A stretch of DNA of 64,000 bases. Origin: Roseomonas sp. OT10. Lineage in GTDB: Bacteria; Pseudomonadota; Alphaproteobacteria; Acetobacterales; Acetobacteraceae. Numbering within the stretch: position 1 is the first letter of the stretch; each line of letters starts with the position of its first letter. Under the pieces are notes generated by a model. It was given only the letters and a program-made list of their open reading frames with translations. It was not told where the DNA came from and ran no database searches. Location: contig NZ_CP087719.1 in NCBI RefSeq assembly GCF_020991085.1, positions 1,384,001 to 1,448,000 of the forward strand, read 5' to 3'. Below are positions 12,413-47,685 of the stretch, in pieces. The translations under genes and the position numbers were made by a program.

Positions 12413-12534
12413 GCCGTCCGGAGTCCGGCCTTCACGGCGGCTGCATGGGCGGGCATGGCGGGCTCTCCTTCGTCACGCCCGCCCATAGGGCGGCGCTGTG
12501 GCCGCCGCCGCAAGGGGAGGGGCGGGCGGACGGC

Positions 12535-12729: not shown

Positions 12730-12883
12730 CGTCAGGTCCCCAGGGCCGCCATGGCCCCCTGCGCAGCGCAACGGCGCTGCCCGCGGGAGGTTGAGGCTGG
12801 CCCGCCCGGCGCCGCCCTGCCATCGGGCTTGACGCTCCGGGCCGCGGGCAGCATGGCGGCCGGCCGGAGGAGGAACGCCTGCC

Positions 12884-28231: not shown

Positions 28232-29419
28232 GTGCACTATCAATCTCATGCCCCGGCCCCCGCCCTCGACACGCTGTCGAGCCTGCCGCTCCGCAACGAC
28301 CCCAGGGCCCGCATGGCCGCCGCGCTGCCCGGCTGGATGCAGCCTTTCCTGACCTGGGTCACCGCCAAGCCCGCCCCGGGGGAGGAGGCGCCGGAGCGCC
28401 ACCCCGCCAGCTTCGTCGCCAGCGGCCTGGCCGCCATCCTCGGCGGCGCCGCCCTGACCCTGGCTGCGCTGATGCTCGCCCTGCCCTGGTGGCTGGCGGC
28501 ACTGCTGGTGACGGCGGGCCTCACCACGACCTGCTCCGGGCTGGGTCTGTACCAGGTGGTCATCTTCCACCACTGCTCGCACGGTACCGTCTTCGCGACA
28601 CGGGAGCGCAACCGGCAGGTCGGACGCATCGTCTCGGCCCTGCTGCTGTTCACACGCTTCGAGGACTACCAGCGCGACCACATGCTGCATCACAGCGCCA
28701 ACAAGCTGCTGACCGAGGAAGACGAATTCACCGGCTTCGTCTTCGGGGTCTGCGGCCTGGAACCCGGCGTGCCGCTGCGGACGCTGTGGCGCCGGGTGAT
28801 CGTCAACCTGGTCTCGCCCGCCTTCCATATCCGCTTCCTGCGACGGCGCCTGAAGGCGGCGATGTTCAGCGGCGACCGGGCACATGACTGGATGGCCCGG
28901 GCGGGCGTCGCCGTGCCGCTGGCGGCCGCGGCCGTGACGGGGGCCTGGGTGCCCGTGCTGGTCGCCTGGTTCCTGCCGCTGACCGTGCTGCTGCAGGTCG
29001 CGACCGTCTTCCGCATCCTGTGCGAGCACCGCTTCCCGGACGTCGATCTGATCCGCGCCCGCGGGAAGGCCTTCGTCTGCGCCTCCACCACGGGCGTGTT
29101 CCCCGGCGCCATGCCGCCGGACCGTTCCCCCGCCAGCCTGGGTGGCCTGACCGCCTGGGGCTGGTGGTGGGCCCGGATGCTGGTCGGCGCCGTCTTCGCG
29201 CGGGTCTTCGTGCTGGTGGGCGACGCCCCCTGCCACGACTTCCACCATCGCCGCCCGGCCACCAAGAAGTGGACCCAGTACAGCCACGCCCGGCAACAGG
29301 ACCTGGATGCCGGCTCGCCCGGCTTCCCCGCCAACTACAGCGAGAACTGGGGCCTCATCCGGGCCGTGGACCGCAACCTTGCCACCCTGGCCGCGACGCC
29401 GCCCGGCGTGGTCGCCTGA
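28232..29419 (+). CDS. membrane fatty acid desaturase family protein
   Basis: 395 residues. Three histidine boxes typical of di-iron membrane desaturases and hydroxylases: HHCSH at 113-117, HMLHH at 150-154 and HDFHH at 335-339, with several hydrophobic segments (about 70-105, 225-270, 305-330). Introduces a double bond or hydroxyl into a lipid acyl chain in the inner membrane, drawing electrons from an unseen redox partner. GTG 28232 is chosen because AAAAGGAA precedes it. Upstream of the FIST/kinase and lipid megasynthase loci; it might act on the same lipid, which is only positional inference. Confidence 0.9.
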   Translation: MHYQSHAPAPALDTLSSLPLRNDPRARMAAALPGWMQPFLTWVTAKPAPGEEAPERHPASFVASGLAAILGGAALTLAALMLALPWWLAALLVTAGLTTTCSGLGLYQVVIFHHCSHGTVFATRERNRQVGRIVSALLLFTRFEDYQRDHMLHHSANKLLTEEDEFTGFVFGVCGLEPGVPLRTLWRRVIVNLVSPAFHIRFLRRRLKAAMFSGDRAHDWMARAGVAVPLAAAAVTGAWVPVLVAWFLPLTVLLQVATVFRILCEHRFPDVDLIRARGKAFVCASTTGVFPGAMPPDRSPASLGGLTAWGWWWARMLVGAVFARVFVLVGDAPCHDFHHRRPATKKWTQYSHARQQDLDAGSPGFPANYSENWGLIRAVDRNLATLAATPPGVVA

Positions 29420-32351: not shown

Positions 32352-33752
32352 ATGAGAAGCTCTGAGATCATTCCCGGCCTGCTTTGCGGTGCAGACCAGG
32401 ACCCGATGCTACCCTACGTGGTGCTGGACGTCTCCCGCCTGCTGGCCTGCGGCGGCAAGGCGGCGCCGTCGGGCATCGACCGCGTGGAGCTGGCCTACGC
32501 CCGCCACTGGGCCATGCGGCCACAGGCGGATTGCAGCTTCGTCACCATGTCGCCCTCCGGCGCCTGGTGCGTGGTGCCCTCCGGCGCGGTGCGCGATCTG
32601 GTCCGCTGCCTATGCGAGGCCTGGTCGCGGGGTGGGGACCTCGCCTCGGCGGAGGCGGGGGCGGCCCGCCGCCTCGCCCGGCGGCTGCAACTGCGCGCGG
32701 CGCTGGGCTTCGGCCGTCGCGAGATGACGGCCGTGCTGGCGCGCCCCGGCGCTAAGGCTTTCCTGCTGGTCTCCCATCGCGCGCTGGAGCGCCAGGAATC
32801 CATCCGCGCCCTGCGCAGCCGGGGATGCGCCTTCGTCCCCCTGATCCACGACCTGATCCCGGCGACGCACCCCGAATATGCCCGCCCCGGCCAGTCGGGG
32901 CGGCACCTCCGCCGCATCGGCACCACGGTCTCCCTGGCGGACGGGGTCATCGTCAACTCCCGGCATACCGCGGCCGTGCTGGCCGGGCACATGCGGCCGC
33001 GGGCCCTGCCGCCTCCGGTGCTCGTCGCGCCGCTGGGGATCGAGGCGCCCCGCCCGCCGCTTCCCGCCCTGGCCACGGGGCCTGCGTCGAACCCCTATTT
33101 CCTGATCCTGGGCACCATCGAGCCGCGCAAGAACCATCTCCTGCTCCTGCATATCTGGCGCGACCTCGTCGACCGCCTCGGCCCGGAGACGCCGCGCCTG
33201 CTGGTCCTGGGACGGCGTGGCTGGGAGAACGAGAATGTCGTGGACCTCCTGGAGCGCAGCACCACCCTGCGCGGCGTGGTGCAGGAGATGGGGTCCCTGC
33301 CGGACCGTCAGGTGTGGGAACTGATGCGGGGCGCGCGGGCCCTCCTCTTCCCCTCCTTCGCCGAGGGCTTCGGCCTCCCGCTGGGCGAGGCGCTGGCGCT
33401 CGGCGTGCCGGTGATCGCATCGGATCTGGCGTCGTTGCGCGAAGTGGGCGGAGACGTCCCGGAGTACCTCGATCCCCTCGACGGTCCGCGCTGGCGGGAA
33501 CGGATCCTGGCCTATGCGGCGCCGGGCAGCGCCGCGCGTGCCTCGCAGCTCGACCGTCTCGGCGGCTGGCAGCCACCCGGTTGGGACGAGCATTTCCGAC
33601 GCGTGGAGGTGCTGCTCGCCCACATCACCGCCACGGAGGTGCGCCCGGCGACGACAATGCCTTTTCCCGCCCGCGATGCCGCCGAGCCCTGGGAGGCCGG
33701 GCTGGTCCTGGCGGACAGGGTACCGGCCCTTGCGGCATTGCAACGCACGTAA
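32352..33752 (+). CDS. glycosyltransferase family 4
   Basis: 466 residues. C-terminal GT-B nucleotide-sugar domain with GTIEPRKNHLLLLHIW and the EGFGLPLGEALALGVPVIASD acceptor/donor loop (E-x7-E type retaining motif); an N-terminal half with PLIHDLIPATHPEYARP and VNSRHTAAVLAGHM. Retaining GT4 enzymes act at the cytoplasmic face of the membrane in polysaccharide assembly. ATG 32352 follows a strong GGAAGGAG box; a GTG/ATG pair at 32280/32283 lies upstream without one. First gene of the putative lipid/capsule operon, 23 nt before the megasynthase start. Confidence 0.92.
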   Translation: MRSSEIIPGLLCGADQDPMLPYVVLDVSRLLACGGKAAPSGIDRVELAYARHWAMRPQADCSFVTMSPSGAWCVVPSGAVRDLVRCLCEAWSRGGDLASAEAGAARRLARRLQLRAALGFGRREMTAVLARPGAKAFLLVSHRALERQESIRALRSRGCAFVPLIHDLIPATHPEYARPGQSGRHLRRIGTTVSLADGVIVNSRHTAAVLAGHMRPRALPPPVLVAPLGIEAPRPPLPALATGPASNPYFLILGTIEPRKNHLLLLHIWRDLVDRLGPETPRLLVLGRRGWENENVVDLLERSTTLRGVVQEMGSLPDRQVWELMRGARALLFPSFAEGFGLPLGEALALGVPVIASDLASLREVGGDVPEYLDPLDGPRWRERILAYAAPGSAARASQLDRLGGWQPPGWDEHFRRVEVLLAHITATEVRPATTMPFPARDAAEPWEAGLVLADRVPALAALQRT

Positions 33753-33765
33753 GATTCATTATAAA
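33738..33765 (+). promoter_or_regulatory. candidate internal promoter before the megasynthase
   Basis: TTGCAA at 33738-33743 and TATAAA at 33760-33765 with a 16-bp spacer lie over the end of the glycosyltransferase gene. A start site 6-8 nt beyond would give an almost leaderless mRNA for the gene at 33776, which fits the absence of a Shine-Dalgarno sequence there. Confidence 0.4.
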
Positions 33766-33775
33766 ATCGTAATTA

Positions 33776-36700
33776 GTGAGCCGGATGAATCAAGATTCTG
33801 GGCGGGGCGGCGGGCGGGCCCGACGAGCTCCCGTGGCCATCATCGGAGCCGCCTGCCGCTTCCCCGGCGCGCCCGACCTGGCGGCCTACTGGGATCTGTT
33901 GCTGGCCGGGCGCGACGTGGTGTCCACCCTCCCGCAGGACCGCTTCTCCCAGCGCCTGTTCCACCACCCCCGGCGGGGTGAGCCGGGCCGCTCCTACACC
34001 TTCGCGGCGGGGCATCTGGGCGACGTGGCGGGCTTCGACGCCACGGCCTTCGGACTCAGCCCGCGCGAGGCCGCCGAGGCCGATCCGCAGCAGCGCCTCC
34101 TGCTGGAGGTGACGGCGGAGGCGATCGAGGATTCAGGCTGCCGCCCCTCCGCTCTGGCGGGGCGGGAGATCGGCGTCTGGATCGGCGGCTCCTCGACCGA
34201 TTACGGCGAGCTGCGGCTCTCCGACCCTGCCGGGGCGGACCGGTACTTCATGACGGGGAACACCCTGTCGATCCTGGCCAACCGGCTGACCAACGTCTTC
34301 GACCTGCGCGGCCCCGGGCAGACCGTGGACACCGCCTGCTCCTCCTCGCTGGTCGCGCTGCACCATGCCATGGAGTCGCTGGAGCGTGGCGAGGTGGAGG
34401 CGGCGGTGGTGGGCGGCGTGCAGCTGCTGCTCTCGCCCTATGCCTTCGCCGGCTTCTCCAGGGCATCGATGCTCTCGCCCACCGGCCGCTGCCGCTTCCT
34501 CGACGCCGGCGCGGATGGCTATGTCCGGGCGGAAGGGGCGGGGGTCGTCCTGCTCAAGCCGCTCGCGGCGGCGCTGGCGGATGGCGATCCGGTGCGCGCC
34601 GTGCTGATCGGCAGCGGCGTGAACAGCGCGGGCCGCACCATCGGCCTCTCCCTGCCGAACCTGGAGGCGCAGGCCGCACTGATGGCCCGGGTGCTGGAGC
34701 GAAGCGGCATCCCGGCGCGCCGCGTCGCCTATTTCGAGGCGCATGGCACGGGCACCCAGGTGGGCGACCCCGTCGAGGTCAGCGCGATCGGGCAGGTCCT
34801 GGGCCGGGGCCGGCGCAAGCCGCTGCCGGTCGGCTCGGCCAAGACCAATATCGGGCATACCGAGCCCGCCTCGGGGATGGCGGGGCTGCTGAAGGCGATG
34901 CTGGTGCTGCAGCACGGGACCATCCCGCCCAGCCTGCATTTCGAGACGCCCAACCCGCATGTCGACCTGGCGGCGCTGAACCTGCGCGTGCCGCTCCGGC
35001 CCGAGCCGCTCTCCCAGGGCGGCGCCGCGTCGCCGGCCCCGGTGGTGGGGGTCAACTCCTTCGGCTTCGGCGGCACCAACGCCACGGCCCTGCTGACGGC
35101 CGCCCCTGCGGCCGCCATCCCCGCCCGTGCGCCGGCGCACGAGCCGGCAGCCGCGCTACCGCCGCTGCTGCTTTCCACCCGTTCCCCCGCCGCCCTGCCG
35201 CTGCTCGCCGCCCGCTGGCGCGAGCGGCTGGAGGGCACGACGCAGGCCCGGTTGCCGGCGCTGCTGCGCGGCGCCGCGCGCCATCGCGACCTGGGCCCGC
35301 ACCGTCTGGTCGTGCGCGGGAACGAGGCGCCGGTCCTGGCGGCGGCGCTGGCCGACTGGGCCGCCGGGCGCAAGCCGGGCGGGGTCACGGAGGGCCAGGC
35401 CGGGCCGGCGGGCGGGATCGCCTTCGTCTTCTCGGGCAATGGCGCGCAGTACCCGGGCATGGCCCAGGCGGCGCTCGCAAGCCATGCCGGCTTCCGCGCC
35501 GGGGTGGAGGAGGCGGATGCCGCGCTGGCGCCGCTGCTGGGCTGGTCCCCCGCTGCGCGCCTCGCCGACGGGGTGGAGGAGGAAGCGCTGGCGGCGACGG
35601 ACGTCGCCCAGCCGCTTCTCTTCGCGGTGCAGGCCGGGCTGCTGCGCGGGCTGGCGGCCGAGGGGCTGGTGCCGGACCTCGTGCTCGGCCACTCGGTGGG
35701 CGAGGTGGCGGCGGCGCTGGCGGCCGGGCTGCTGGACATGGCGCAGGCGGCACGCCTGGTCGTGGCGCGCTCCGCCGCCCAGCACGCCACCCGGGGCCGG
35801 GGCCGCATGGCGGCGCTCGCCTGCTCGGCCGAGGCGATGGAACCGCTGCTGGCCGCCTGCGGCCCCGGGCTGGAGATCGCCGCCCGCAACGCCCCGCGCG
35901 CCGTCACCATCGCCGGCCCGGCCGAGGCGATCGCGCGGCTTGCCGCGCAGGCGAAGGCGCAGCGGCTGCACTGCGTCGAGCTCGATCTCGACTACGCCTT
36001 CCACTCCGCCGCCATGGACCCGGTGCGGGCCGCCCTGCTGCGCTCGCTGGAGGGGCTGGCGCCCCGCCGCGGCCGGATCCCCTTCCTCTCGACCGTGCAC
36101 GGTGCGCCGGTGGGGGAGCCGGACGCGGAATACTGGTGGCGCAACCTGCGCGACCCGGTGCGCTTCGCCGACGGGGTCGCGCTGGCGCTGGAACGGGGGG
36201 CGCGGCTTTTCGTCGAGATCGGCCCGAACCCCGTCCTGCAATCCTACCTGCGGGAGACGACGCGCGAGGCCCGTGCGGTCGTCCTGCCGGGCCTGTCGAA
36301 GCGCGACCGACCCGAGGCGGGCGATCCGGTGGCCGCCATCGCCGACCGTGCCGCGGCGCGCGGCGCCGACCCCCGCAACGGCCCGGCCTATGCGGGGCCG
36401 GCGGCACGGGACCTGCCGCTGACCCCCTTCGCCCGGGAGCGGCACTGGCTGGCCCGCAGCTCGGAGGACAACCGGCTCCACGACCCGCATCACGACCACC
36501 CGCTGCTGGGGATGCGCCGCTCCGCCGAGGCCGGCCCCTGGACGCGCGACCTGGACACGGTGCTGGAGCCCTGGCTGGCCGACCACCGGCTGGGCGGGGA
36601 GGCGGTGCTGCCGGCCGCCGCCATGCTGGAGATGGCGCTGGCCGCCGCCGCCTGGCGCTTCCCGGAGGCGCCGGTCCTGGAGGTCGCCGCCTTCCAGATC

Positions 36701-39700
36701 CTGCGGCCCATGCCGCTGTCGGAGGCGGAGACGCGGCAGGTTCGCGTGCGCCTGTCGGATGAGGGCGCCCTGACCCTGGAGAGCCGGCGCCGCCTCGCCG
36801 AGGAGGGCTGGACCCTGCACGCCCGGGGGCGGGTGGGGGAGGCGAGCCTCTCCGCCCTGTCGGCAGGGCCGGCCGCGCCGCTGGCCGAGCCGCGCCGGAT
36901 GGAGGGCGCGGCGGTGACCGCGCTGGCGGCGCGGCTGGGGCTGGACTACGGCCCCGCCTTCCGGCCGCTGCGGGAGGTGCAGGCGGATTTCGGCCGGGCC
37001 CGTGCCAGCCTGGTGCTGCCTGAGGCCGCGCCGCCGGATGCCGCCTTCCTGCTGCACCCGGTCCGCCTGGACGGGGCGTTGCAGGCCCTGATCGCGCTGC
37101 TGGCCCCCGCCATGCCGGACCTGTCGGGGCGGGGGGCGGCGGTTCCGGAGGCGCTGCTCCCGGTCCGGGTGGAGCGGCTGGTCTGGCGCCGCGGCGCCGC
37201 GCCGGCGGCCATCGCGGAGCTGGCGCTGCTGCGCGCCGGGGAGCGTTCGGCCGCGGCCCGGCTGCTGCTCCGCGACGCGCAGGGCCAGGCCGTCGCGCTG
37301 ATCGAGGAGGCGGCGCTGCAGCGGGTGCGGCTCGGCCTGGGGACCGCGGCCGAGCCCATGGTCTTCCGCATGGAGGATCTGCCCACCACCGATCCCGCGC
37401 TGCCGCCGCCCGCCCCGGCGCTCGACGCCGCGCTGACCGCCGCGCGGCAGGCGGAGGAGGCGCTGGACCTGTCCGAGACGGCGCTGCTGCTGGAGGGCTG
37501 GGCCGGCGCCGTGGCCCATGCGGCGCTTGCCACCGGGGTGTCGCGCCGCGCCCTGCCGCAGCCATCCCCGCAGCCATCCCCGCGGCCATCCCCCCTGGCG
37601 GACGCCCTGCTGCGGGCGCTGGAGGAGGATGGGCTGGCGGCGAACGACCCGGAGGACGGGCTGCGCCCCCTGCCGGAATCGGTCCTGCCGCCGGCCGAGG
37701 ACATCTGGCGCTCCGTCCTGGCCGAGCAGCCCTCCATGGCGCATGACCTCGCCTGGCTCGCCCTGGCGGCGGAACGCCTGCCGCTCGCCCTGGCGGGCGA
37801 GGGCGCCGCGCTGCCCATGCCGGAGGAGGCCGCCGGCCCCGACCGGCTGGCGGAGGTGGTGGTGGCCGCCGCCGGGGCCCTGGCCGCCGCCTGGCCGGCG
37901 GGCCGGCCGCTGCGCGTGCTGGATCTGGGCAGCGCGGCACTGAGCCGCCGCCTGGCCGAGGCGCTGGGCGCCACCGGCCGCAGGGTGTTGCACCACGTGG
38001 CCGGGGAGGGGCGGGTGCTGCCCGGCGCCCGCGGGCTGGTGGAGCGGCTGCCCCTGGCCTGGGATCCGGAATCCGGGACACCTTGCCCGGTTGCGGCCGA
38101 TCTGGTGGTGGGCGTCGGCGCCGCCGCGCGCGGCCGGCTGGGCACGGCCCTGCTGCCCGGCCTCGCCGCGGCGCTGGCGGAAGGCGGCACGCTGCTGCTG
38201 GCGGAGCCGCTGCCGGGCCGCGTGCTGGATCTCGCGCTCGGCCAGGACCCATCCTGGTGGAGCGGCCGCCCGCTGCCGGGGGCCGCGGCCTGGCGCGATG
38301 CCCTGGCCGCCGACGGCTGGCTGCAGGGGCTGGCCGAGCCGCTGCGGGCGGCACCCTGGCCGGCCCTGTTGCTCTCCGCCCGGCGGCCGGTGGAACCCGC
38401 CCGCCTGGCCGCGACGGCACCGGCTCCCGCCGGACCCTTGCCGCCCATGCTGCTGGTCGCCGACAGCGCGGCCCGCCCGCTGGCGGAGGCCCTGGCCCAG
38501 GCGCTGGCCGCTCTGCCGCAGCCCGCCCAGCTCGGCCTCACGCGGCTGGAGGATGCCGCGAACCTGCCGCCGCGCCGGCTGCGCGGGGCGCTAGTGGTGG
38601 CGCTGGCGGGATCGGCTGCGGAGGCGTTGCCGACCGCCCTCGCCGGGCTGGTCGCGCTGGCGCAGGTGGCCCAGGGCGCCGCCGCCCGCTTCGCCGTCGT
38701 CACCCAGGGCGACGACACCCACCCGCCGGCCGAGGCGGTGCGGGCGCTCTGCCGCGTGCTGGCCAACGAGATGCCGGATCTGGCGCCGCGCCGGCTGCTG
38801 GTGGATGCCGCCCTGGCCCCGGCCGCCGCCGCCGCGCGGCTGCTGCCGGAACTGCTGTCGCCCGGCGCGGAGCCGGAGGCGCTGCTGGCGCAGGCGACGC
38901 GACGCGCCCCGCGCCTGCGCCCCGGCGCTGCCGAGCCCGACCGCCCGCGGGGGCCGGCGCGGCTGGTCGTGCGGCAGCCGGGCCAGCTCGGCAGCCTGGG
39001 CTGGGAGACGCTGCCCACCGCGCCCGACCTCGCCACCGGCGAGGTGCTGGTGCGGGTGGAGGCCGCGGGGCTGAACTTCCGCGACCTGATGTGGGCGCAG
39101 GGCCTGTTGCCGGAGGAGATCCTGCAGGGCGGCTTCGCCGGCGCCGGGCTGGGCATGGAGTTCGCCGGCACGGTCGAGGCGGTGGGGCCCGGCGTGGGGC
39201 TTCGGCAGGGGCTGCGGGTCTTCGGCTTTGCCCCCCGCGCGCTCGCCAGCCGGGCGGTGACCCGGGTGGAGGCGATCGCGCCGATCCCGGAGGGGATGGG
39301 CTTCGCCGCCGCCGCGACGGTGCCGGTGGCGTTCCTCACCGCCGCCCATGCGCTGGAAGGCTGCGCCCGCCTCGCCCCGGGCGAGCGCGTGCTGGTGCAT
39401 GGCGGCGCCGGGGCGGTCGGACTGGCCGCGCTGCAGATCGCGCAGGAAGCGGGGGCGCGGGTGGCGATGACCGCCGGCACACCGGCCAAGCGCGCCTTCC
39501 TGCGTGCCGCCGGGGCGGAGCTGGTGCTGGACAGCCGCGATCCCGGCTTCGCCGATGCGCTGCGCCTGCACTGGCCCGACGGCGTGGACGTGGTGGTGAA
39601 CAGCCTGGCCGGCGACGCGATGGAGCGCTCCCTCGCGCTGCTGCGTCCCTGGGGCCGGTTCATCGAGCTGGGCAAGCGCGACTATGCCGAGGATCGCCGC

Positions 39701-41098
39701 ATCGCGCTGCGGCCGATGCGCCGCAACATCAGCTATTTCGGCGTGGACGTGGACCAGCTTCCCGCCGCCCGCCCGGCGGAGGCGGCGCGGCTGCTGGACG
39801 GGCTGCGCGCCCGGCTGGCGGTCGGCACGCTGCGCCCGCTGCCGCGCAGCGTCGTCCCCGCGGCCCGGGTGGAGGACGCCTTCCGCACGCTCCAGGCCAG
39901 CGCGCATATCGGCAAGCTGGTGATCCGCCCGCCGCATCAGGCGGCGCCTGCCGCGCCGTCCTGGGTCCCCCCCGCCGGCACGGTGCTGGTCACCGGCGGC
40001 ACGGCGGGCTTCGGGCTGGAATGCGCGAAGTGGCTGGCGGCGCGCGGCGTGCGGCGGCTGGCGCTGCTCTCCCGCCGCGGCCCGGCCACGCCGGAGGCCG
40101 CGGCCGCGCTGCGGGCGCTGGCGGCGCTGGGGGCACGGGCCACGGCCCATGCGTGCGACGCCGCGGATGCGGAGGCGCTGGGCGCGGTGCTGACGGCGCT
40201 GCGGGCGGAGGGGCCGATCGGCGGCGTGGTGCATGCGGCCGCGGTCTTCGACGATGGCGGGGTGGCGACGCTGGACGCCTCCCGCTTCGCGCGGGTGCTG
40301 GCGCCGAAGCTGCTGGCGGCGGAGCACCTGGACCGGCTGACGCGGGCGGACCAGCCGGCGCTGTTCCTCCTCTTCTCCTCGGCCACCACGCCGCTCGGCA
40401 ATCCGGGGCAGGGGAACTACGTCGCGGCCAATGCCGCGCTGGAGGCGCTGGCGCGGCGGCGGCGGGCGGGCGGGCTGCCGGCCCTGGCCGTGGGCTGGGG
40501 CCCGATCGCCGATGCGGGCGTCCTGGCGCGCGAGACGGGGGTGGCGGAGACCCTCTCCCGCCGCCTGGGCGTGGAGCCGATGGCGGCGGGCGAGGCGCTC
40601 GACGCCCTCCCGGCGCTGCTCGGCTCCGGGGCGCCGGTGGCGTACCTGGCGCGGCTGGGCTGGGGCCGGCTCGGCGCCGCCCTGCCGGTGCTGCGCGAGC
40701 CCGCCTTCGCCACGGTGCGGGAGGCGGCCGGGACGGCCGGGGACGTGGACGACATGCGCGCGCACCTGCTGGAGCTGCCGCCCGAGGAGGGCAAGGCGCT
40801 GCTGCTGCGCATCGCGGCCGAGGAGCTGGCCCGCATCCTGCGCCTGCCCGCCGATGCGATCCCCGCCGATGCCCCCGTGGCGCGGCTGGGGCTGGACAGC
40901 CTGGGCGGGCTGGAGCTGCGCGGCGCGCTGGAGCAGCGGCTCGGCCTCTCCGTGCCGCTCGCCGCCGTGACGGAGGATCTGACCCTGGCCGGGCTCGCGG
41001 CGCGGGTGGTGGAGGGGCTGCACGGCGAGCGCGGCGAGGAGGCGCAGGTCGCGGTGCTGCTGCAGCACTTCGAGCCGACGCGGGAGGCGGCGGAGTGA
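33776..41098 (+). CDS. fully reducing type I PKS/FAS-like megasynthase (RkpA-like)
   Basis: 2440 residues if the GTG at 33776 is used (ATG 33785 is the alternative; no clear ribosome binding site for either). Domains in order: KS 15-440 with Cys188 (TACSSS), His323 and His361; AT about 540-830 with Ser640 in GHSVGE and a YAFHS motif pointing to malonyl; DH about 905-1190 with His937 (HxxxGxxxxP) and Asp1099 (DxxxQ); a degenerate methyltransferase-like region about 1350-1540; ER about 1728-2055 with NADPH loop HGGAGAVG; KR about 2065-2270 with Ser2202/Tyr2215; ACP with Ser2375 in GLDSLG. No thioesterase. All six catalytic domains look active, so it should build a saturated chain from malonyl units, like an animal fatty acid synthase, and leave it on the ACP for the next enzyme. 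Confidence 0.93.
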   Translation: MSRMNQDSGRGGGRARRAPVAIIGAACRFPGAPDLAAYWDLLLAGRDVVSTLPQDRFSQRLFHHPRRGEPGRSYTFAAGHLGDVAGFDATAFGLSPREAAEADPQQRLLLEVTAEAIEDSGCRPSALAGREIGVWIGGSSTDYGELRLSDPAGADRYFMTGNTLSILANRLTNVFDLRGPGQTVDTACSSSLVALHHAMESLERGEVEAAVVGGVQLLLSPYAFAGFSRASMLSPTGRCRFLDAGADGYVRAEGAGVVLLKPLAAALADGDPVRAVLIGSGVNSAGRTIGLSLPNLEAQAALMARVLERSGIPARRVAYFEAHGTGTQVGDPVEVSAIGQVLGRGRRKPLPVGSAKTNIGHTEPASGMAGLLKAMLVLQHGTIPPSLHFETPNPHVDLAALNLRVPLRPEPLSQGGAASPAPVVGVNSFGFGGTNATALLTAAPAAAIPARAPAHEPAAALPPLLLSTRSPAALPLLAARWRERLEGTTQARLPALLRGAARHRDLGPHRLVVRGNEAPVLAAALADWAAGRKPGGVTEGQAGPAGGIAFVFSGNGAQYPGMAQAALASHAGFRAGVEEADAALAPLLGWSPAARLADGVEEEALAATDVAQPLLFAVQAGLLRGLAAEGLVPDLVLGHSVGEVAAALAAGLLDMAQAARLVVARSAAQHATRGRGRMAALACSAEAMEPLLAACGPGLEIAARNAPRAVTIAGPAEAIARLAAQAKAQRLHCVELDLDYAFHSAAMDPVRAALLRSLEGLAPRRGRIPFLSTVHGAPVGEPDAEYWWRNLRDPVRFADGVALALERGARLFVEIGPNPVLQSYLRETTREARAVVLPGLSKRDRPEAGDPVAAIADRAAARGADPRNGPAYAGPAARDLPLTPFARERHWLARSSEDNRLHDPHHDHPLLGMRRSAEAGPWTRDLDTVLEPWLADHRLGGEAVLPAAAMLEMALAAAAWRFPEAPVLEVAAFQILRPMPLSEAETRQVRVRLSDEGALTLESRRRLAEEGWTLHARGRVGEASLSALSAGPAAPLAEPRRMEGAAVTALAARLGLDYGPAFRPLREVQADFGRARASLVLPEAAPPDAAFLLHPVRLDGALQALIALLAPAMPDLSGRGAAVPEALLPVRVERLVWRRGAAPAAIAELALLRAGERSAAARLLLRDAQGQAVALIEEAALQRVRLGLGTAAEPMVFRMEDLPTTDPALPPPAPALDAALTAARQAEEALDLSETALLLEGWAGAVAHAALATGVSRRALPQPSPQPSPRPSPLADALLRALEEDGLAANDPEDGLRPLPESVLPPAEDIWRSVLAEQPSMAHDLAWLALAAERLPLALAGEGAALPMPEEAAGPDRLAEVVVAAAGALAAAWPAGRPLRVLDLGSAALSRRLAEALGATGRRVLHHVAGEGRVLPGARGLVERLPLAWDPESGTPCPVAADLVVGVGAAARGRLGTALLPGLAAALAEGGTLLLAEPLPGRVLDLALGQDPSWWSGRPLPGAAAWRDALAADGWLQGLAEPLRAAPWPALLLSARRPVEPARLAATAPAPAGPLPPMLLVADSAARPLAEALAQALAALPQPAQLGLTRLEDAANLPPRRLRGALVVALAGSAAEALPTALAGLVALAQVAQGAAARFAVVTQGDDTHPPAEAVRALCRVLANEMPDLAPRRLLVDAALAPAAAAARLLPELLSPGAEPEALLAQATRRAPRLRPGAAEPDRPRGPARLVVRQPGQLGSLGWETLPTAPDLATGEVLVRVEAAGLNFRDLMWAQGLLPEEILQGGFAGAGLGMEFAGTVEAVGPGVGLRQGLRVFGFAPRALASRAVTRVEAIAPIPEGMGFAAAATVPVAFLTAAHALEGCARLAPGERVLVHGGAGAVGLAALQIAQEAGARVAMTAGTPAKRAFLRAAGAELVLDSRDPGFADALRLHWPDGVDVVVNSLAGDAMERSLALLRPWGRFIELGKRDYAEDRRIALRPMRRNISYFGVDVDQLPAARPAEAARLLDGLRARLAVGTLRPLPRSVVPAARVEDAFRTLQASAHIGKLVIRPPHQAAPAAPSWVPPAGTVLVTGGTAGFGLECAKWLAARGVRRLALLSRRGPATPEAAAALRALAALGARATAHACDAADAEALGAVLTALRAEGPIGGVVHAAAVFDDGGVATLDASRFARVLAPKLLAAEHLDRLTRADQPALFLLFSSATTPLGNPGQGNYVAANAALEALARRRRAGGLPALAVGWGPIADAGVLARETGVAETLSRRLGVEPMAAGEALDALPALLGSGAPVAYLARLGWGRLGAALPVLREPAFATVREAAGTAGDVDDMRAHLLELPPEEGKALLLRIAAEELARILRLPADAIPADAPVARLGLDSLGGLELRGALEQRLGLSVPLAAVTEDLTLAGLAARVVEGLHGERGEEAQVAVLLQHFEPTREAAE
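37556..37591 (+). repeat. 12-bp tandem repeat, three units, inside the megasynthase
   Basis: Two identical units and one with a single change (unit CCGCAGCCATCC). They encode a PQPSPQPSPRPSP linker between the dehydratase and the pseudo-methyltransferase region. A multiple of three, so copy number changes would only change linker length. Confidence 0.8.
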
Positions 41099-42414
41099 CC
41101 GGCGGCTTCGGCCTTTCCGCGGGCGCCCGGCTGGCGCTGCTGCAGCGCCTCGCCAAGCGGCGGGCCCGGCAGGATGACGGGCCGGAGGCGGCGGGGCGGC
41201 GCGGCTTCTCCGACCTGCCGGGCATGCGCGACTTCGCGCTGCTGCAGACGGCGGTGGAGACGCTGTCGCTGGAGAACCCCTTCTTCCGGCCGCACGACGC
41301 CGTGGCGGGCGGCACCACGGAGATCGGCGGGCGGCGCTACGTCAACTTCTCCTCCTACAACTACCTCGGCCTGAACGGCGATCCGCGCGTGGCGGCGGCG
41401 GCCAAGGCGGCGATCGACCGGTACGGCGTCTCCGCCTCCGCCAGCCGCTTGGTCTCCGGCGAGCGGCCGGTGCATGCGACGCTGGAGCGCGCCCTGGCGG
41501 AGAACTACGGCACCGAGGACGCGCTCTGCATGGTCTCGGGCCATGCCACCAACGTCACGCTGATCGGCCACCTGATGGGGTCGCGCGACGTGATCGTGCA
41601 CGACGCCGCCATCCACAATTCCTGCACGGAGGGCGCGCGCCTCTCCGGCGCGCGGCGCATCCCCTTCGCCCACAACGACGCGGCGGCGGCGGAGCGCGAG
41701 CTGGCGGCGGCGCGGCGCGGCGCGCGGCGGGCGCTGCTGGTGATCGAGGGCCACTATTCCATGGACGGCGACCTGCCCGACCTCGCCCGCTTCGTGGCGA
41801 TGGCGCGGCAGCACGACGCCTGGCTGATGGTCGACGAGGCGCATTCGCTCGGCGTGCTCGGTCCCACCGGACGCGGCATCTTCGAGGAGCAGGGCGTCGA
41901 TCCGGCGGGGGTCGACATCTGGATGGGCACGCTGTCCAAGACGCTCTCGGCCTGCGGCGGCTTCATCGCGGCGCAGCGCGACCTGATCGAGTGGCTGCGC
42001 CACACCGCGCCGGGCTTCGTCTACTCCGTTGGGCTGCCGCCGGCCCTGGCCGCCGCCGCGCTGGAATCCCTGGCCGTCATGCAGGCCGAACCCTGGCGGG
42101 TGGCGCGGCTGCGGCACAATGCCCGCCACTTCCGGGACCGGCTGCGCGACCTCGGCCTCGACACCGGGACCTCCGCCGGCTGCGCCATCGTGCCGGTGAT
42201 CACCGGCTCCTCGGTCCGGGCGGCACGCCTCTCGGCGGCGCTCTTCGCGCGCGGGGTGAACGTCCAGCCGATCGTCTTCCCCGCCGTGCCGGAACAGGCG
42301 GCGCGGCTACGCTTCTTCCTGAGCGCCGAGCATGAGGAGCCGCAGCTCGACGCGGCGGCCGAGGCGGTGGCCGAGGCCCTCGCGGGGCTGGCGCCGCTGG
42401 ACCTGGGGCGGTGA
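41095..42414 (+). CDS. alpha-oxoamine synthase (AONS/KBL/SPT family, RkpG-like)
   Basis: 439 residues, PLP fold type I. NFSSYNYLGLNGDPRVAAAA, SASRLVSGERPVHATLE, VDEAHSLGVLGPTGRG and GTLSKTLSACGGFIA with Schiff-base Lys282. Family members condense an amino acid with an acyl thioester, losing CO2, to give an aminoketone: glycine in KBL, alanine in BioF, serine in serine palmitoyltransferase. About 80 residues precede the core, more than in BioF, perhaps for docking to the megasynthase. GTG start overlaps the megasynthase stop (GTGA), so the two are translated together. I infer off-loading of the ACP-bound chain as its job; no biotin genes are near. Confidence 0.93.
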   Translation: MTGGFGLSAGARLALLQRLAKRRARQDDGPEAAGRRGFSDLPGMRDFALLQTAVETLSLENPFFRPHDAVAGGTTEIGGRRYVNFSSYNYLGLNGDPRVAAAAKAAIDRYGVSASASRLVSGERPVHATLERALAENYGTEDALCMVSGHATNVTLIGHLMGSRDVIVHDAAIHNSCTEGARLSGARRIPFAHNDAAAAERELAAARRGARRALLVIEGHYSMDGDLPDLARFVAMARQHDAWLMVDEAHSLGVLGPTGRGIFEEQGVDPAGVDIWMGTLSKTLSACGGFIAAQRDLIEWLRHTAPGFVYSVGLPPALAAAALESLAVMQAEPWRVARLRHNARHFRDRLRDLGLDTGTSAGCAIVPVITGSSVRAARLSAALFARGVNVQPIVFPAVPEQAARLRFFLSAEHEEPQLDAAAEAVAEALAGLAPLDLGR

Positions 42415-43553
42415 GCACGATCGCCGCCGCCCCGACCGTGGCCGAGGTCGCCGACGAGGCGGCGGCGGACGCCTGGCTCCGCCTGCCGGCCCTGCTGGGC
42501 GGGGAGGCGGCGGGCTGGTCGGTGCCGCTGCTGGCCGAGCAGCGACGCACCTTCGATCCCGGCTTCAACCCCGCCCTGGCGGAATGGCGGATCGCGCGGT
42601 TCCTGGCCCTGCGCGACGGGCGGCCGGTCGGGCGGATCGCCGCTGCGCTGCCGCGCGACGGCTCCACCGGCGGGGTCGGGCATTGCGGCTTCCTGGCGCT
42701 GGAGCACGATCCGGCCGTGCTGGCGGCGCTGCTGGATGCGGCCTCGGCCCGGTTGCGCGGCTGGGGGGCGTCGCGGCTCCGCGGGCCGCTCTCCTGGTCG
42801 ATCAACCACGAGGTCGGCGCCCAGGTGGCGGGCTTCGGGGCGCCGCCCATGCTGCGCATGCCGCGCAACCCGGGCTGGCTGCCGCCGATGCTGGAAGCGG
42901 CCGGGCTGCGGCCGGAGAAGGACGTGCTGGCCTGCACCCTGGATCTCGCCGGGGAGCGCCATTCCGCCCGCTTCGCGCCGCTGCTGGCCCGCTGGCCGGG
43001 GCGGGACGGGCTGCGCGTGCGGCCCCTGCGCCGGAGGCGCCTGGCGACGGAGGTGGCGCTGCTGCGCGACCTCTACAACGATGCCTGGGCCGGGAACTGG
43101 GGCGCGCAGCCGGTCAGCGCCGCGGAGGCGGGGGTGATGCGCCGCCTCCTCGCGCCCCTGCTGCTGGCGGGGCGGGTGCTCTTCGCCGAATGGCGGGGCG
43201 AGGCGATCGGCCTCTGCGCCGTGGTGCCGAACATCGAGGAGGCGACGGCGCGGCTGGACGGGCGGCTCGCTCCCTTCGGCTGGGCGCGGATGCTGCCGGC
43301 GCTGGCCGGGCGCACCACCTCGGGGCGGCTGCCGCTGCTGGGCGTGCGCCGCGCCTTCCGGGGCGGGGCGGTCTCGGCCATGGCGGTGGGCGCGATGCTC
43401 TCGGGCGCCATCGCGCTGGCGCGGCGGCGCGGCTGGGCGCGGCTGGAGGTGTCCTGGATCCTGGAAGACAACGCCGCCATGCTGGCCGCCATGGCGCGGC
43501 TTCCCGCGCCGGAGACGGGGCGCTGGCGGATCTACGGGGCGGCGCTGGCATGA
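42411..43553 (+). CDS. GNAT-superfamily N-acyltransferase-like protein
   Basis: 380 residues. A GNAT fold is suggested by the C-terminal half (EVALLRDLYNDAWAGNWG, LFAEWRGEAIGLCAVVPNIEEA, VSAMAVGAMLSGAIALARRRG, LEVSWILEDNAAM) and an N-terminal FNPALAEWRIARFLALRDG with GRIAAA. It resembles the large YghO-like GNAT proteins that accompany oxoamine synthases in lipid loci, but the match is by eye. Could acylate or acetylate the amino group made by the preceding enzyme, which is inference. GTG start overlaps the previous stop (GTGA). Confidence 0.75.
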   Translation: MSTIAAAPTVAEVADEAAADAWLRLPALLGGEAAGWSVPLLAEQRRTFDPGFNPALAEWRIARFLALRDGRPVGRIAAALPRDGSTGGVGHCGFLALEHDPAVLAALLDAASARLRGWGASRLRGPLSWSINHEVGAQVAGFGAPPMLRMPRNPGWLPPMLEAAGLRPEKDVLACTLDLAGERHSARFAPLLARWPGRDGLRVRPLRRRRLATEVALLRDLYNDAWAGNWGAQPVSAAEAGVMRRLLAPLLLAGRVLFAEWRGEAIGLCAVVPNIEEATARLDGRLAPFGWARMLPALAGRTTSGRLPLLGVRRAFRGGAVSAMAVGAMLSGAIALARRRGWARLEVSWILEDNAAMLAAMARLPAPETGRWRIYGAALA

Positions 43554-44842
43554 ACGCGATCCCGCCCGGCCGCAGCGGCCCGCGTTCCTTCGTCTTCCTC
43601 CAGGGGCCGATCAGCCCCTTCTTCCGCGAGGTGGGCGAGGGGCTGCGCGCGCTCGGGCACCAGGTCGCGCGGGTGAACCTGAACCTGGGCGACAGGCTGC
43701 TGTGGTGGGGGCGGGGCGCGGTGGACTACCGCGGCCGGGCGGAGGACTGGCCCGGCTGGATCGACCGCTTCCTGGAGGAGCGCGGGGCGACCGACCTCGT
43801 CCTGCTGGGCGAGCAGCGGCCGCAGCACAAGCCCGCCATCGACGCTGCGCGGCGCCGCGGCGTGCAGGTGGTGGCGACCGACTTCGGCTACATCCGGCCC
43901 GACTGGATCGTGCTGGAGCGCGACGGCATGAACGCCGAGAGCCGCTTTCCCCGCGATCCGGACACCATCATCGCGCTGGGGCGCGCGCTGCCGCCGCCGG
44001 ACCTGGTGGTGCACCATCGCGACTGCTTCCGCACCCAGGCGATCTGGGACATCGCCTATCACATGGCGATGCTGCTGCCCTGGCCCTTTCCCCACTATCG
44101 CACGCACCAGCTCTACCATCCGATCCCCGTCTATGCCGGCACGGCGATGCGGCTGCTGCTGCGCGGGCGGGAGAACCGGCGCGCGGCCCGAATCCTGGAG
44201 GGGCTGAAGGGCGTGGCGGGGCCGAAGGGGCCGCTCTTCCTCTTCGCCATGCAGATGGAGACGGACTTCTCCCTGCGCGCCTACTCGCCCTATCCGGACA
44301 TGGATTCGGCGATCACCGATGTCGTCGCCTCCTTCGCCGCGCATGCGCCGCCGGAGGCGCAGCTTCTGGTGAAGGTGCATCCGCTCGATCCGGGCCTGAA
44401 GATGTGGCACCGCCGGGTGCGGCAGATCGCGCGCCGCTTCGGTGCCTCGGAGCGCGTCCACTACCTGGGCGGCGGCAACCTGGGCGACATCACCGAGAGC
44501 GTGCAGGGCGTGGTCACGGTGAACAGCACCGTCGGCCTGCGCGCCATCATCGACGGCCTGCCGACCCATGCGCTGGGCGAGGCGATCTACAGGATCCCCG
44601 GCCTGGTCCACCCCGGCGGGCTGGACGGCTTCTGGCGCGCCGCGGCGCCGCCGGAGCCGCTGCTGCGCGAATGCTTCCTGCGCGCGATCGCCCACTGCCT
44701 GCACATCCGTGGCGTCTTCTACGCGCGCGCGGGGCTGGACGCGGCGGTCCGCAACGCCGTGCACCGCCTGCACCACGGCCTGCTCAACGTCCCGGTGGAA
44801 TGGGGCTGGCAGGCCGTGGCGGAGATGGCGCAACGGCGCTGA
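43550..44842 (+). CDS. capsular polysaccharide biosynthesis protein (KpsS/LipB, RkpJ-like)
   Basis: 430 residues of the Capsule_synth family. FVFLQGPISPFFREVGEGLRAL at the N-terminus, DLVLLGEQRPQHKPAIDAARR, FGYIRPDWIVLERDGMN, LLVKVHPLDPGLKMWHRRV and VVTVNSTVGLRAIIDGLPTHALG are diagnostic. KpsS and KpsC are the Kdo transferases that start group 2 capsules on a lipid in the cytoplasmic leaflet. ATG overlaps the preceding stop (ATGA). Export genes kpsMTED and kpsC are absent from the window, so the rest of the pathway must be elsewhere. Ends the operon. Confidence 0.92.
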   Translation: MNAIPPGRSGPRSFVFLQGPISPFFREVGEGLRALGHQVARVNLNLGDRLLWWGRGAVDYRGRAEDWPGWIDRFLEERGATDLVLLGEQRPQHKPAIDAARRRGVQVVATDFGYIRPDWIVLERDGMNAESRFPRDPDTIIALGRALPPPDLVVHHRDCFRTQAIWDIAYHMAMLLPWPFPHYRTHQLYHPIPVYAGTAMRLLLRGRENRRAARILEGLKGVAGPKGPLFLFAMQMETDFSLRAYSPYPDMDSAITDVVASFAAHAPPEAQLLVKVHPLDPGLKMWHRRVRQIARRFGASERVHYLGGGNLGDITESVQGVVTVNSTVGLRAIIDGLPTHALGEAIYRIPGLVHPGGLDGFWRAAAPPEPLLRECFLRAIAHCLHIRGVFYARAGLDAAVRNAVHRLHHGLLNVPVEWGWQAVAEMAQRR

Positions 44843-44906: not shown

Positions 44907-45881
44907 TCAGCGGCGCCGGCGCTCCGCCGCCTCGGCGCGGCGCATGTCGACGAAGACCTGATAGTCGGCGTGGCTGGTGCGGGCCCAGCCGATCGCGCTG
45001 CCACGCTCCACCGCGCGGTGGATATCCGGATGCGCCTTGGGCAGGGCGAGGTGGAAGGCGATCATGTCCTCCTTGAACGCCGCCGGCAGGTCGGAGCGCA
45101 CGACGATCGGCCCGTTCTGGATGGGCCGGGAGGTCCAGATGATGCGGAGGTCGGCCATGTTCAGCATGCCCTTCTCCACCGCCGCGCGCAGCACGCCGCG
45201 GGTATAGGGCGGTTCGCCCTGGCCGGAGACCCAGGTGACACCCGCGTCGTACTGGCGTTGCAGCACCGCCACCAGCGCCTGGTCGTGCCCGCCGGCGAAG
45301 CCGGTGCGGGCGAAGAACTGCCCCGGCTCGGGGTTGATGCCCGCCGCGCGCAGTTCGGCACGCGGGATGAGGTAGCCGGAGGCGCTGTTGGGGTCGGCCC
45401 AGGCAATGGACTTCCCGCGCAGGTCTTCGATCTTCGTGATGCCGCTGTCGCTGCGGACATACATGACGGCGACGTAGGAGGTGCTGCCGTCGGACTCCCG
45501 CGTCACCAGGATCGGCTCCACCCCGCCATTGGTGTCCATCCAGACGCCCGCATAGGCGGCGGGGGCCATGTTGGCGATCTCCAGCTGCTTCGCCGCGAAG
45601 GCCTGCTGCACGCCCGCGTAGTCGGAGGCGAAGAACATCCGCGTGGGCACCTGGAAGATGTCCTCGAACAGCTTGCGGTAGCCCTCGTAGCGGCCCAGCC
45701 GGTCCGTCTCCGTCTCGCCGCCCAGCACGCCGAGGCGGATCTGCGGCACCTGCTCCGCCCAGGCGCGGCGGCCCGGGGCAGGCATGGCGACCGCATCGGG
45801 GGTGGCCTGGGACCGCGCCGCCAGGGGCGCGAGGAGCGGCGCGGAACCGGTGGCGGCCAGCAGCTGGCGGCGGGAGAGCAT
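44907..45881 (-). CDS. PhnD-like phosphate/phosphonate ABC receptor
   Basis: 324 residues. Tat-type signal (LSRRQLLAATGSAPLLAP), then a periplasmic phosphonate-binding family protein: RLGVLGGETETDRLGRYEGY, FFASDYAGVQQAFAAKQLEI, YLIPRAELRAAGINPE, ALVAVLQRQYDAGVTWV. Binds phosphonate, phosphite or phosphate esters in the periplasm. No phnC or phnE beside it. It neighbours glpD, which may hint at a phosphate-ester ligand, but this is weak. Confidence 0.9.
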   Translation of the reverse strand: MLSRRQLLAATGSAPLLAPLAARSQATPDAVAMPAPGRRAWAEQVPQIRLGVLGGETETDRLGRYEGYRKLFEDIFQVPTRMFFASDYAGVQQAFAAKQLEIANMAPAAYAGVWMDTNGGVEPILVTRESDGSTSYVAVMYVRSDSGITKIEDLRGKSIAWADPNSASGYLIPRAELRAAGINPEPGQFFARTGFAGGHDQALVAVLQRQYDAGVTWVSGQGEPPYTRGVLRAAVEKGMLNMADLRIIWTSRPIQNGPIVVRSDLPAAFKEDMIAFHLALPKAHPDIHRAVERGSAIGWARTSHADYQVFVDMRRAEAAERRRR

Positions 45882-46004
45882 GGGGGCTTGCTCCGGCAGG
45901 GGAGGGGCGTTGGTCCGGGGCGCATCGTCACACGGTTGCCACGCGGGGCCAAGCGCATCCGCCCCCGGCTTGCGCCCGGCCGTGCGCGTGTCAGGCTGGG
46001 AGGC

Positions 46005-47555
46005 ATGGATGGGGAAGCGGCAGGGCACGGTTCGGATCCGGTGGACCTGCTCGTCATCGGCGGCGGCGCCAATGGCGCGGGGATCGCGCGCGATGCGTCG
46101 GGGCGGGGACTCTCCGTGCTGCTGGCCGAGCGCGGCGACCTGGCGGGGGCGACCTCCTCCTCCTCGTCGAAGCTGATCCATGGCGGGCTGCGCTACCTGG
46201 AGCAGTACGAGTTCCGCCTGGTGCGGGAGGCGCTGGCGGAGCGCGAGGTGCTGCTGCGCCTCGCCCCGCACATCGCCTGGCCGATGCGCTTCGTGCTGCC
46301 GCGCGTGCCGGGGATGCGGCCGGCCTGGATGCTGCGGGCGGGGCTGTTCCTCTACGACCACCTCGCGCGGCGGGTGACGCTGCCGGGCAGCGAATCCCTG
46401 GACCTGCGGCGGCATCCCTGGGGGGCGCCGCTGAAGCCGGAGCTGTCGCGCGGCTTCGCCTATTCGGATGCCTGGGTCGAGGATGCGCGCCTCGTCGTGC
46501 TGAACGCCCGCGACGCGGCGGCGCGGGGGGCCACGGTGCTGGTGCGGACCGAGTTCGTCTCCGCCCGGCGCGGCGCGGACGGGTGGGACTGCGTCCTGCG
46601 CGACGTGTCGGGGCGCGGCGCCGCGGGCGGCGCGGAGCGCCGCGTGCGGGCCCGGGCCATCGCCAATGCCGCCGGCCCCTGGGTGATGCAGGCGCTGGCG
46701 GAGACGGGGGTGGCGGCGCCGGACCGGGTACGCCTGGTGCGCGGCAGCCATATCGTCGTGCCGAGGCTGTATGAGGGGCAACAGGCCTACATCCTGCAGA
46801 ACGACGACCGGCGGGTGGTCTTCGTCATTCCCTACGAGCAGGACTTCACCCTGATCGGCACGACGGACGTGCCGCACGACCCCGCCTCCGGCCCGCCGCG
46901 CTGCACGCCGGAGGAGGCGGCCTATCTCTGCCGCGCCGTCTCGCGCCAGTTCCGGCGGGAGGTGACGCCGGGCGACATCGTCTGGACCTATTCCGGCGTG
47001 CGGCCGCTGCATGATTCCGGCGAGGCCAACCCCTCCGAGGTGACGCGCGACTACGTGCTGAAGCTGGACCGGGCGGGCGCGCCGCTGCTCTCCGTCTTCG
47101 GCGGCAAGATCACCACCTTCCGCCGGCTGGCCGAGGATGCGGTCGGGCAGCTTTGCCACGCGCTGGGCGAGACGCGCCCCGCCTGGACGGCGACGGCACC
47201 GCTGCCCGGCGGCGACCTCGGCGGGCGGACGCCGCAGGGCTTCGTGGCCGAGGCCGCTCGCCGCTACCCCTTCCTGGAGGAGGCGCGGCTCTGGCGGCTG
47301 TTCCGGTGCTATGGCGGCGAGCTGGATGCGGTGCTGGGCGGCGCGCGCGACGCGGCGGCGCTGGGCCGCGAGCTGGGCGGCGGCATCACCGAGCGCGAGC
47401 TGGAATGGATGGTGGCCCGGGAATGGGTGCGGGTCCCGGACGACGCGCTCTGGCGACGGACCAAGCGCGGCCTGCACATGAGCGAGGGCGAGCGGGAGGC
47501 CTTCGCCGAGGCCTTCGCCGCGCGGGTGGGGACGGGCGCGGCCCTGCCGGACTGA
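46005..47555 (+). CDS. glpD: aerobic glycerol-3-phosphate dehydrogenase
   Basis: Membrane-associated FAD enzyme oxidising glycerol-3-phosphate to dihydroxyacetone phosphate and passing electrons to quinone. 516 residues. LLVIGGGANGAGIARDASGRG binds FAD; SSSSSKLIHGGLRYLEQYEF is the substrate-loop signature, with ANAAGPWVMQAL and FGGKITTFRRLAEDA later. GGGAGG box before ATG 46005. Stands alone between the PhnD-like and RTX genes, not in a glpFK operon. Confidence 0.95.
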   Translation: MDGEAAGHGSDPVDLLVIGGGANGAGIARDASGRGLSVLLAERGDLAGATSSSSSKLIHGGLRYLEQYEFRLVREALAEREVLLRLAPHIAWPMRFVLPRVPGMRPAWMLRAGLFLYDHLARRVTLPGSESLDLRRHPWGAPLKPELSRGFAYSDAWVEDARLVVLNARDAAARGATVLVRTEFVSARRGADGWDCVLRDVSGRGAAGGAERRVRARAIANAAGPWVMQALAETGVAAPDRVRLVRGSHIVVPRLYEGQQAYILQNDDRRVVFVIPYEQDFTLIGTTDVPHDPASGPPRCTPEEAAYLCRAVSRQFRREVTPGDIVWTYSGVRPLHDSGEANPSEVTRDYVLKLDRAGAPLLSVFGGKITTFRRLAEDAVGQLCHALGETRPAWTATAPLPGGDLGGRTPQGFVAEAARRYPFLEEARLWRLFRCYGGELDAVLGGARDAAALGRELGGGITERELEWMVAREWVRVPDDALWRRTKRGLHMSEGEREAFAEAFAARVGTGAALPD

Positions 47556-47562
47556 GCCGGGT

Positions 47563-47583
47563 GCGCCGGCGCGTGGCCGGCGC
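47563..47583. terminator. GC hairpin after glpD
   Basis: GCGCCGGC-GCGTG-GCCGGCGC, a perfect 8-bp stem, directly after glpD and before the convergent RTX gene. No T run, so a terminator role is tentative. Confidence 0.35.
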
Positions 47584-47685
47584 GCCCGGCCCGGCGGCGG
47601 TGCCGGACCGGGGCGGCCCAGCTTCCGCCCCGGCGGCCGGATCCGGGGAAGGCAGGGCCTCCCCCGGGACGGCATGGCGGGGCCG

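Follow-up and report, generated by a model that had tools for sequence, protein, structure and literature searches.

In Roseomonas sp. OT10 (genome G000; 5.69 Mb in 3 contigs) we analysed a stretch of 64,000 nucleotides (C1:1384001-1448000, hereafter the window) that carries a single run of five plus-strand genes (32352..44842) which, judged by homology and context, probably makes and primes a sphingolipid-like anchor, of the 3-oxo-sphinganine or keto-ceramide type, for an ABC-exported capsule. The run encodes a GT4 glycosyltransferase, a polyketide synthase (PKS), an alpha-oxoamine synthase (AOS), a GNAT-like protein and a KpsS-type protein (Table 1), the last four of which overlap via GTGA, GTGA and ATGA, as a first-pass annotation of the same DNA had described. 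This reading draws on the domains and their order, the placement of the AOS in the RkpG clade, the neighbouring gene of the bacterial ceramide synthase (bCerS) family, the adjacency of KpsS, the presence of exporter genes elsewhere in G000, and the precedent of PfSgaAB, a sphinganine-producing PKS and AOS pair.

Table 1. Genes of the putative anchor operon, with positions in the window.
Gene product	Position	Strand	Evidence
GT4-family glycosyltransferase, first of the run	32352..33752	+	Pfam Glycos_transf_1, 66.3 bits
Fully reducing type I PKS, KS-AT-DH-ER-KR-ACP, without thioesterase	33776..41098	+	Pfam, motifs
AOS, RkpG clade	41095..42414	+	Tree, motif alignment, pairwise identity
Tandem-GNAT acyltransferase, bCerS/YghO family	42411..43553	+	Identity, tree, predicted fold
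KpsS/RkpJ-type capsule initiation protein, probable glycosyltransferase	43550..44842	+	Capsule_synth, 226.5 bits

In the pathway that we propose, the ACP of the PKS would carry a long, fully saturated acyl chain as it is assembled, and the AOS, in the absence of a thioesterase, would take over this chain and join it to an amino acid, for which L-serine is the likeliest candidate, to give 3-oxo-sphinganine. The bCerS-family acyltransferase would then N-acylate the amine, yielding an oxidised (3-keto) ceramide, and the KpsS-type protein, perhaps together with the GT4 enzyme, would add the first sugar to the C1 hydroxyl; if it resembles other KpsS proteins, the sugar transferred would be Kdo (3-deoxy-D-manno-oct-2-ulosonic acid). 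KpsC-like, KpsM/T/E-like and Poly_export proteins, encoded elsewhere on the contig, would lengthen and export the polymer.

The AOS keeps the pyridoxal phosphate lysine (GTLSKT) and histidine (IHNS) positions of its superfamily in a motif alignment. It is 35% identical to the serine palmitoyltransferase (SPT) of E. coli BL21 and 49% identical to the RkpG-position protein of an S. meliloti locus (L067); no rkp names are used in the record of this locus, which was assigned to rkp-1 on the content and order of its genes. A maximum likelihood tree built on 39 rows unites all 11 window-type AOS rows, that of the window among them, in a single clade (100/99). This is nested in a larger clade (20 rows, 100/99) to which belong the S. 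meliloti protein, Shinella, Paraburkholderia, Caballeronia and Pseudomonas plasmid kin, two further Acetobacteraceae, and Planktothrix and Streptomyces forms fused to a PKS. Outside this RkpG clade lie SPT, BioF, Kbl and the ALAS-like enzyme of the same genome, with weak support (52/16) for the deep branch that separates the outer groups; BioF has a clade to itself, made up of three rows (98/94). The AOS does not group with the canonical proteobacterial SPT clade, where two rows first labelled as rkpG group did fall (G021 and G100, both near a bCerS-family gene).

On this tree position, a BioF or Kbl identity was rejected. The first-pass annotation had taken clustering with BioF as the outcome that would count against its proposal; the proposal survives the tree, and the kinship with rkp-1 that it asserted agrees with both the AOS clade and the gene-content comparison. 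A stray BioF- or Kbl-like AOS next to a PKS making an unrelated polyketide is very improbable: the BioF model does give the best NCBIfam score, at 352 bits under a cut-off of 426, but the enzyme sits in the RkpG clade and its coupling to the PKS is conserved in relatives, to the point of fusion in Planktothrix. Among the 16 PF00155 places of G000, just this AOS and one other match it at 1e-3, the second being ALAS-like by reading of its sequence. No BioF was seen among these 16 places; biotin genes were not searched for, and biotin may be made otherwise or imported.

The PKS carries the motifs DTACSSS, HGTGT, NIGH, GHSVGE, YAFH, HRLGGEAVLP, HGGAGAVG, TGGTAGFG and GLDSL; the pattern for the KR tyrosine region, as written, gave no match, and Pfam gave none for a thioesterase. 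It aligns with the PKS of the S. meliloti rkp-1-like locus in two stretches (38.7% and 41.4% identity), and relatives keep the pairing with the AOS; in L032 and L033 PKS similarity was seen only in the C-terminal half, the open reading frame (ORF) of L032 proving to be full length with a KS. A Planktothrix protein of 2532 residues is a PKS with an AOS at its C-terminus (residues 2160-2530), an arrangement that fits direct transfer of the chain from ACP to AOS. RkpG-type AOS domains end PKS proteins on plasmids of Planktothrix agardhii (L075, 10531-18129) and Streptomyces anthocyanicus (L076, 10566-15389). A likeness to the sponge Swf PKS was considered and rejected: according to the available text on Swf, the DPQQR and HGTGT motifs of its KS are altered (PMC3908369), and both are intact here.

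What such a pair can make is indicated by PfSgaAB of P. fluorescens MYb115, an iterative PKS plus an AOS that, in the accessible text of its description, makes C24, C26 and C28 sphinganines and most likely also yields phosphoglycerol sphingolipids, the AOS having SPT activity near-exclusive for L-serine over alanine and glycine (PMC12134224).

The GNAT-like protein is 32% identical to E. coli YghO over 379 aa (pairwise E 8e-54) and 37% identical to a Caulobacter segnis ceramide-locus protein used as a stand-in for CC_1154. Conserved motifs and a tree back its bCerS/YghO membership and a structure model predicts a tandem GNAT fold; a PDB sequence search returned two weak matches (E 0.37 and 0.89). 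By sequence it belongs to the bCerS family, and its predicted role is N-acylation of (3-oxo)sphinganine with a long chain. Acylation of the ketone form has a counterpart in one published model, in which, as far as the available text goes, bCerS acts on 3-ketosphinganine prior to reduction (PMC11087976); another group proposes the opposite order.

We surveyed the surroundings of bCerS-family genes in the best 80 of 337 named loci. An RkpG-type AOS lies immediately 5' of the gene in 18 of the 80, all with a bCerS identity of at least 54%, and in the divergent locus L202; of the remaining 61, 57 have at least one of the SPT, CerR, AasR and LptF-like genes, and none has an RkpG-type AOS or KpsS within the available stretch. 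The bCerS partner in the operon is the RkpG-type AOS and not the canonical SPT plus CerR. Within the same 80 the closest named relative by operon is Roseomonas mucosa ATCC BAA-692 (GNAT-like protein 70%), and a GT4 match precedes the PKS in 15 of the 18 window-type loci by tblastn, the sequence ending before that point in the other three (L161, L162 and L209). A reading of the operon as a canonical ceramide locus was discarded: the AOS is of another clade, a ceramide-locus bCerS probe matches only this gene genome-wide, and the ALAS-like enzyme is the only other of the 16 PF00155 places to match the AOS.

Three observations on the family may be added. In L202 (8577-11044), from a Hyphomicrobiales metagenome-assembled genome outside Acetobacteraceae, a bCerS-family gene (38%) directly follows the RkpG-type AOS (54%). 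Several Roseomonas plasmid records (L077 and others) annotate bCerS-family genes as dATP pyrophosphohydrolase or hypothetical protein, which are likely misnomers. In L029 (genome G011) a window-type GNAT-like gene (51%; 12464-13612) stands at C1:967206, remote from the AOS at C1:45305.

The place beside the AOS was followed in 150 Acetobacteraceae genomes, G000 included, 42 of which have an AOS match at 1e-100. Within 500 bp of the AOS (hereafter the slot), 11 of the 42 have a window-type GNAT-like gene, 20 a Formyl_trans_N-family gene, none both and 11 neither. These 11 genomes are not additive with the 18 loci above, since the two sets overlap (9 of 10 compared pairs are identical) and together cover at most 20 genomes, window included. 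Pfam confirms the Formyl_trans_N identity in all four slot genes scanned, and a reading frame with the HPSLLP motif of the formyltransferase family lies in the gap in 12 of 12 cases examined. Anywhere in the genome, a formyl gene occurs in 24 of the 42, and in none of the 11 with a GNAT-like slot. The exclusion applies to the slot and not to the family, since several formyl genomes have a bCerS-family gene elsewhere (for instance G021, G063, G121 and G138); in G056, which has neither cap in the slot, a bCerS-family gene of another class lies about 1 kb off. The swap occurs inside genera, with GNAT in G000 and G102 versus formyl in G003, and GNAT in G016 versus formyl in G107.

Two unrelated types of enzyme, each able to modify amines, thus share one position that separates AOS from KpsS; the best explanation is the capping of an amine made by the AOS, and we read the swap as pointing to such a step. 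The small GNATs that Paraburkholderia and Pseudomonas carry close to the AOS are consistent with it. Nested within the proposed pathway, and not exclusive of it, is a rather unlikely variant in which the GNAT-like protein transfers acetyl or a similarly short acyl group, giving a single-chain capped sphingoid anchor and not a two-chain ceramide. Only tentatively, and with a chance that we put slightly short of even, can the pathway be given its most specific form, in which Acetobacteraceae build capsules on a polyketide-derived very-long-chain keto-ceramide, N-acylated by a ceramide synthase homologue drawn from sphingolipid metabolism, with KpsS starting at the C1 hydroxyl, and sister lineages, where a formyltransferase takes the place of the acyltransferase, swap to N-formyl single-chain anchors.

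The link to a capsule begins with the last gene of the operon, whose Capsule_synth match (PF05159) is a full-length domain at positions 2-310 and whose product is 44% identical to the KpsS-type protein of the S. meliloti locus. Capsule_synth is found in 36 of the 42 AOS genomes (in one, G076, weakly at 21 bits), and a full-length KpsS lies at most 5 kb from the AOS in 28. Tests on gene distributions in this survey gave a Fisher value of 1.4e-13 and a hypergeometric value of 7.4e-6, both of which ignore the relatedness of the genomes.

The first-pass annotation had proposed much the same pathway, and had held that missing kps export genes set the locus apart. The pathway is consistent with the AOS clade, the acyltransferase family, the KpsS adjacency, the exporter genes and PfSgaAB; the supposed lack of export genes is ruled out by a locus at C1 ~4.877-4.884 Mb, 3.45 Mb from the operon on the same contig. 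It encodes a KpsC-like protein (partial Capsule_synth), an ABC ATPase, a Wzz-type protein whose score falls slightly short of the cut-off, Poly_export and a permease-like ORF, the last without a Pfam match and named by position. Relatives of this permease occur in 13 of 14 genomes searched, the sole miss being a 77% complete genome. The operon and the export locus are likewise separate in G016, G088 and G095, whereas the genes for KpsC-like and exporter proteins start roughly 1 to 7 kb beyond the 3' end of KpsS in G102, G106, G015, G003 and R. mucosa ATCC BAA-692; within the available stretch, a permease is visible in 6 of the 18 window-type loci.

A gene for a short-chain dehydrogenase/reductase (SDR) stands next to KpsC or KpsS in 9 of 11 genomes searched, the exceptions being G000 and G102, so the ketone may stay unreduced in these two, or an unlinked reductase may act. 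A capsule-linked SDR probe finds a 42% match elsewhere in G000, and such a match also exists in 8 of the 9 genomes with a linked SDR. If the reductase is indeed absent from G000, the 3-position would stay a ketone and the hydroxyl used by KpsS would have to come from C1 of serine, which would agree with the serine preference of PfSgaB.

Other capsule loci combine related genes in further ways. On an Acidisoma plasmid (L070, 1999-16151) and in L045 (genome G010) an RkpG-type AOS, an SDR, a bCerS-family gene and two Capsule_synth genes stand together, in L070 also with KpsM/T/E-like genes; the available stretches of both gave no PKS match. In Paraburkholderia and Caballeronia capsule loci an LpxC-type deacetylase gene lies between PKS and AOS (L069, 13772-14686, and L072, 19736-20662), Pfam LpxC being confirmed for that of L069.

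Several results weigh against an anchor pathway for a capsule. The KpsS-type protein scores 172.5 bits against the NCBIfam KpsS equivalog cut-off of 600, and a single-sequence PDB search with it returned no relative of solved structure at E 1. Of the 108 genomes that lack the AOS, 22 have Capsule_synth; conversely, full-length KpsS is missing from the 5 kb on either side of the AOS in 14 of the 42 AOS genomes, and 6 of the 42 are without any Capsule_synth match, which means that the AOS can serve other ends, and the 11 with neither cap beside the AOS imply that capping is not essential to the wider system. The product and all reactions are predictions from homology and context, and the choice of amino acid and the N-acyl length are not readable from sequence. 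Moreover, the title of Fraysse 2005 reportedly assigns a phospholipid anchor to the poly-Kdo capsule of S. meliloti.

Some of these points would also suit a sphingolipid-like product, be it a membrane lipid or a secondary metabolite, that stays free or carries a single sugar; KpsS would glycosylate it, but no capsule polymer would follow. The 6 AOS genomes without Capsule_synth and the operon's own GT4 are compatible with such a product, and PfSgaAB sphinganines, with probable phosphoglycerol sphingolipids, act on the host animal according to the accessible part of that report (PMC12134224). We nevertheless consider a free lipid improbable, as KpsS is part of the operon, KpsC-like and kps exporter genes are present in the genome and lie near the operon in several relatives, and rkp-1, in the available text of a published account, takes part in capsule export and in lipid carrier synthesis (PMC4881576).

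Around the operon, a fatty acid desaturase-family gene (28142-29419, plus strand), which might act on lipids, lies about 3 kb upstream, separated from the operon by genes for a FIST protein and a histidine kinase that are read from the opposite strand; it is at most a candidate member of the conserved run. Directly downstream, a 922-aa ORF on the minus strand (44907-47675) has a phosphonate-binding periplasmic domain confined to residues 671-905 and a long N-terminal part without Pfam match. An Rfam scan of the whole window at gathering scores gave no match.

If the anchor pathway is correct, bacteria use sphingolipid chemistry to anchor a capsule, and a further role falls to the bCerS family beyond ceramide loci. 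The lipid of rkp-1-type pathways has so far been ill-defined, and a sphingolipid-like product would supply testable chemistry: an RkpG-clade AOS, the precedent of a sphinganine synthase made of PKS and AOS, and a ceramide synthase homologue or formyltransferase in the slot give a concrete anchor structure for mass spectrometry. The literature searched, which left outside the original rkp-1 papers and most subscription papers, gave no published link of ceramide, capsule and KpsS. Among the partly accessible papers on sphingolipid, capsular polysaccharide, kps and polyketide we recognised none that was relevant, and a published link may exist.

Of the known systems, the proteobacterial ceramide locus (acpR, spt, aasR, cerR/epi and bcerS/aca; Caulobacter and E. 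coli BL21), in the available text, shares with the operon an AOS-family enzyme and a bCerS-family N-acyltransferase (PMC9386255), but obtains its acyl chain via AcpR/AasR and not from a PKS, has an AOS of another clade, and carries LptF/G-like genes instead of KpsS. PfSgaAB shares the two-gene core of PKS and AOS. It differs in that its sphinganine is reduced, probably with phosphoglycerol, that the accessible text names no bCerS-family gene, and that its paper makes no link to a capsule, the stem 'capsul' occurring 0 times in the main text (PMC12134224). On a plasmid of Pseudomonas sp. TMW 2.1634 the order is KpsS, SDR, lipoteichoic acid (LTA) synthase-like, GNAT, KpsC-like, phytanoyl-CoA dioxygenase-like, AOS and PKS; four genes separate SDR from AOS, as the MYb115 locus tags also suggest, and the two clusters may be of the same kind. 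Other KpsS proteins use a lysophosphatidylglycerol acceptor, which a phosphoglycerol sphinganine would resemble, and such a product could account for the LTA synthase-like gene of rkp-type loci.

With group 2/3 capsule initiation by KpsS and KpsC, G000 shares the KpsS-type, KpsC-like and kps exporter genes; the acceptor there, as given in the accessible text of two papers, is a phosphatidylglycerol-type lipid (PMC12220298, PMC13410964), whereas the window has a dedicated lipid pathway ahead of KpsS. The closest system is the rkp-1 region (rkpA, rkpG, rkpH, rkpI and rkpJ), which in the available text acts in capsule export and in making or modifying a specific lipid carrier whose structure is not given there (PMC4881576). 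Both have a fully reducing PKS followed by an AOS of the same clade, and a KpsS-type protein in the gene group; the window adds a GT4 gene in front. The S. meliloti locus has an SDR after the AOS, the RkpH position, whereas no SDR stands beside the AOS in the operon and the bCerS-family gene fills the slot between AOS and KpsS. The rkp-1 locus also has RkpI, which we take to be LTA synthase-like; the operon has no such gene, and a single Acidisoma LTA synthase-like probe, not RkpI itself, found no match in G000 at 1e-5. The GNAT-like gene in place of rkpH/rkpI, to which the first-pass annotation had drawn attention, is a real difference from rkp-1, and the operon is a variant of the rkp-1/wcb type, not a new type.

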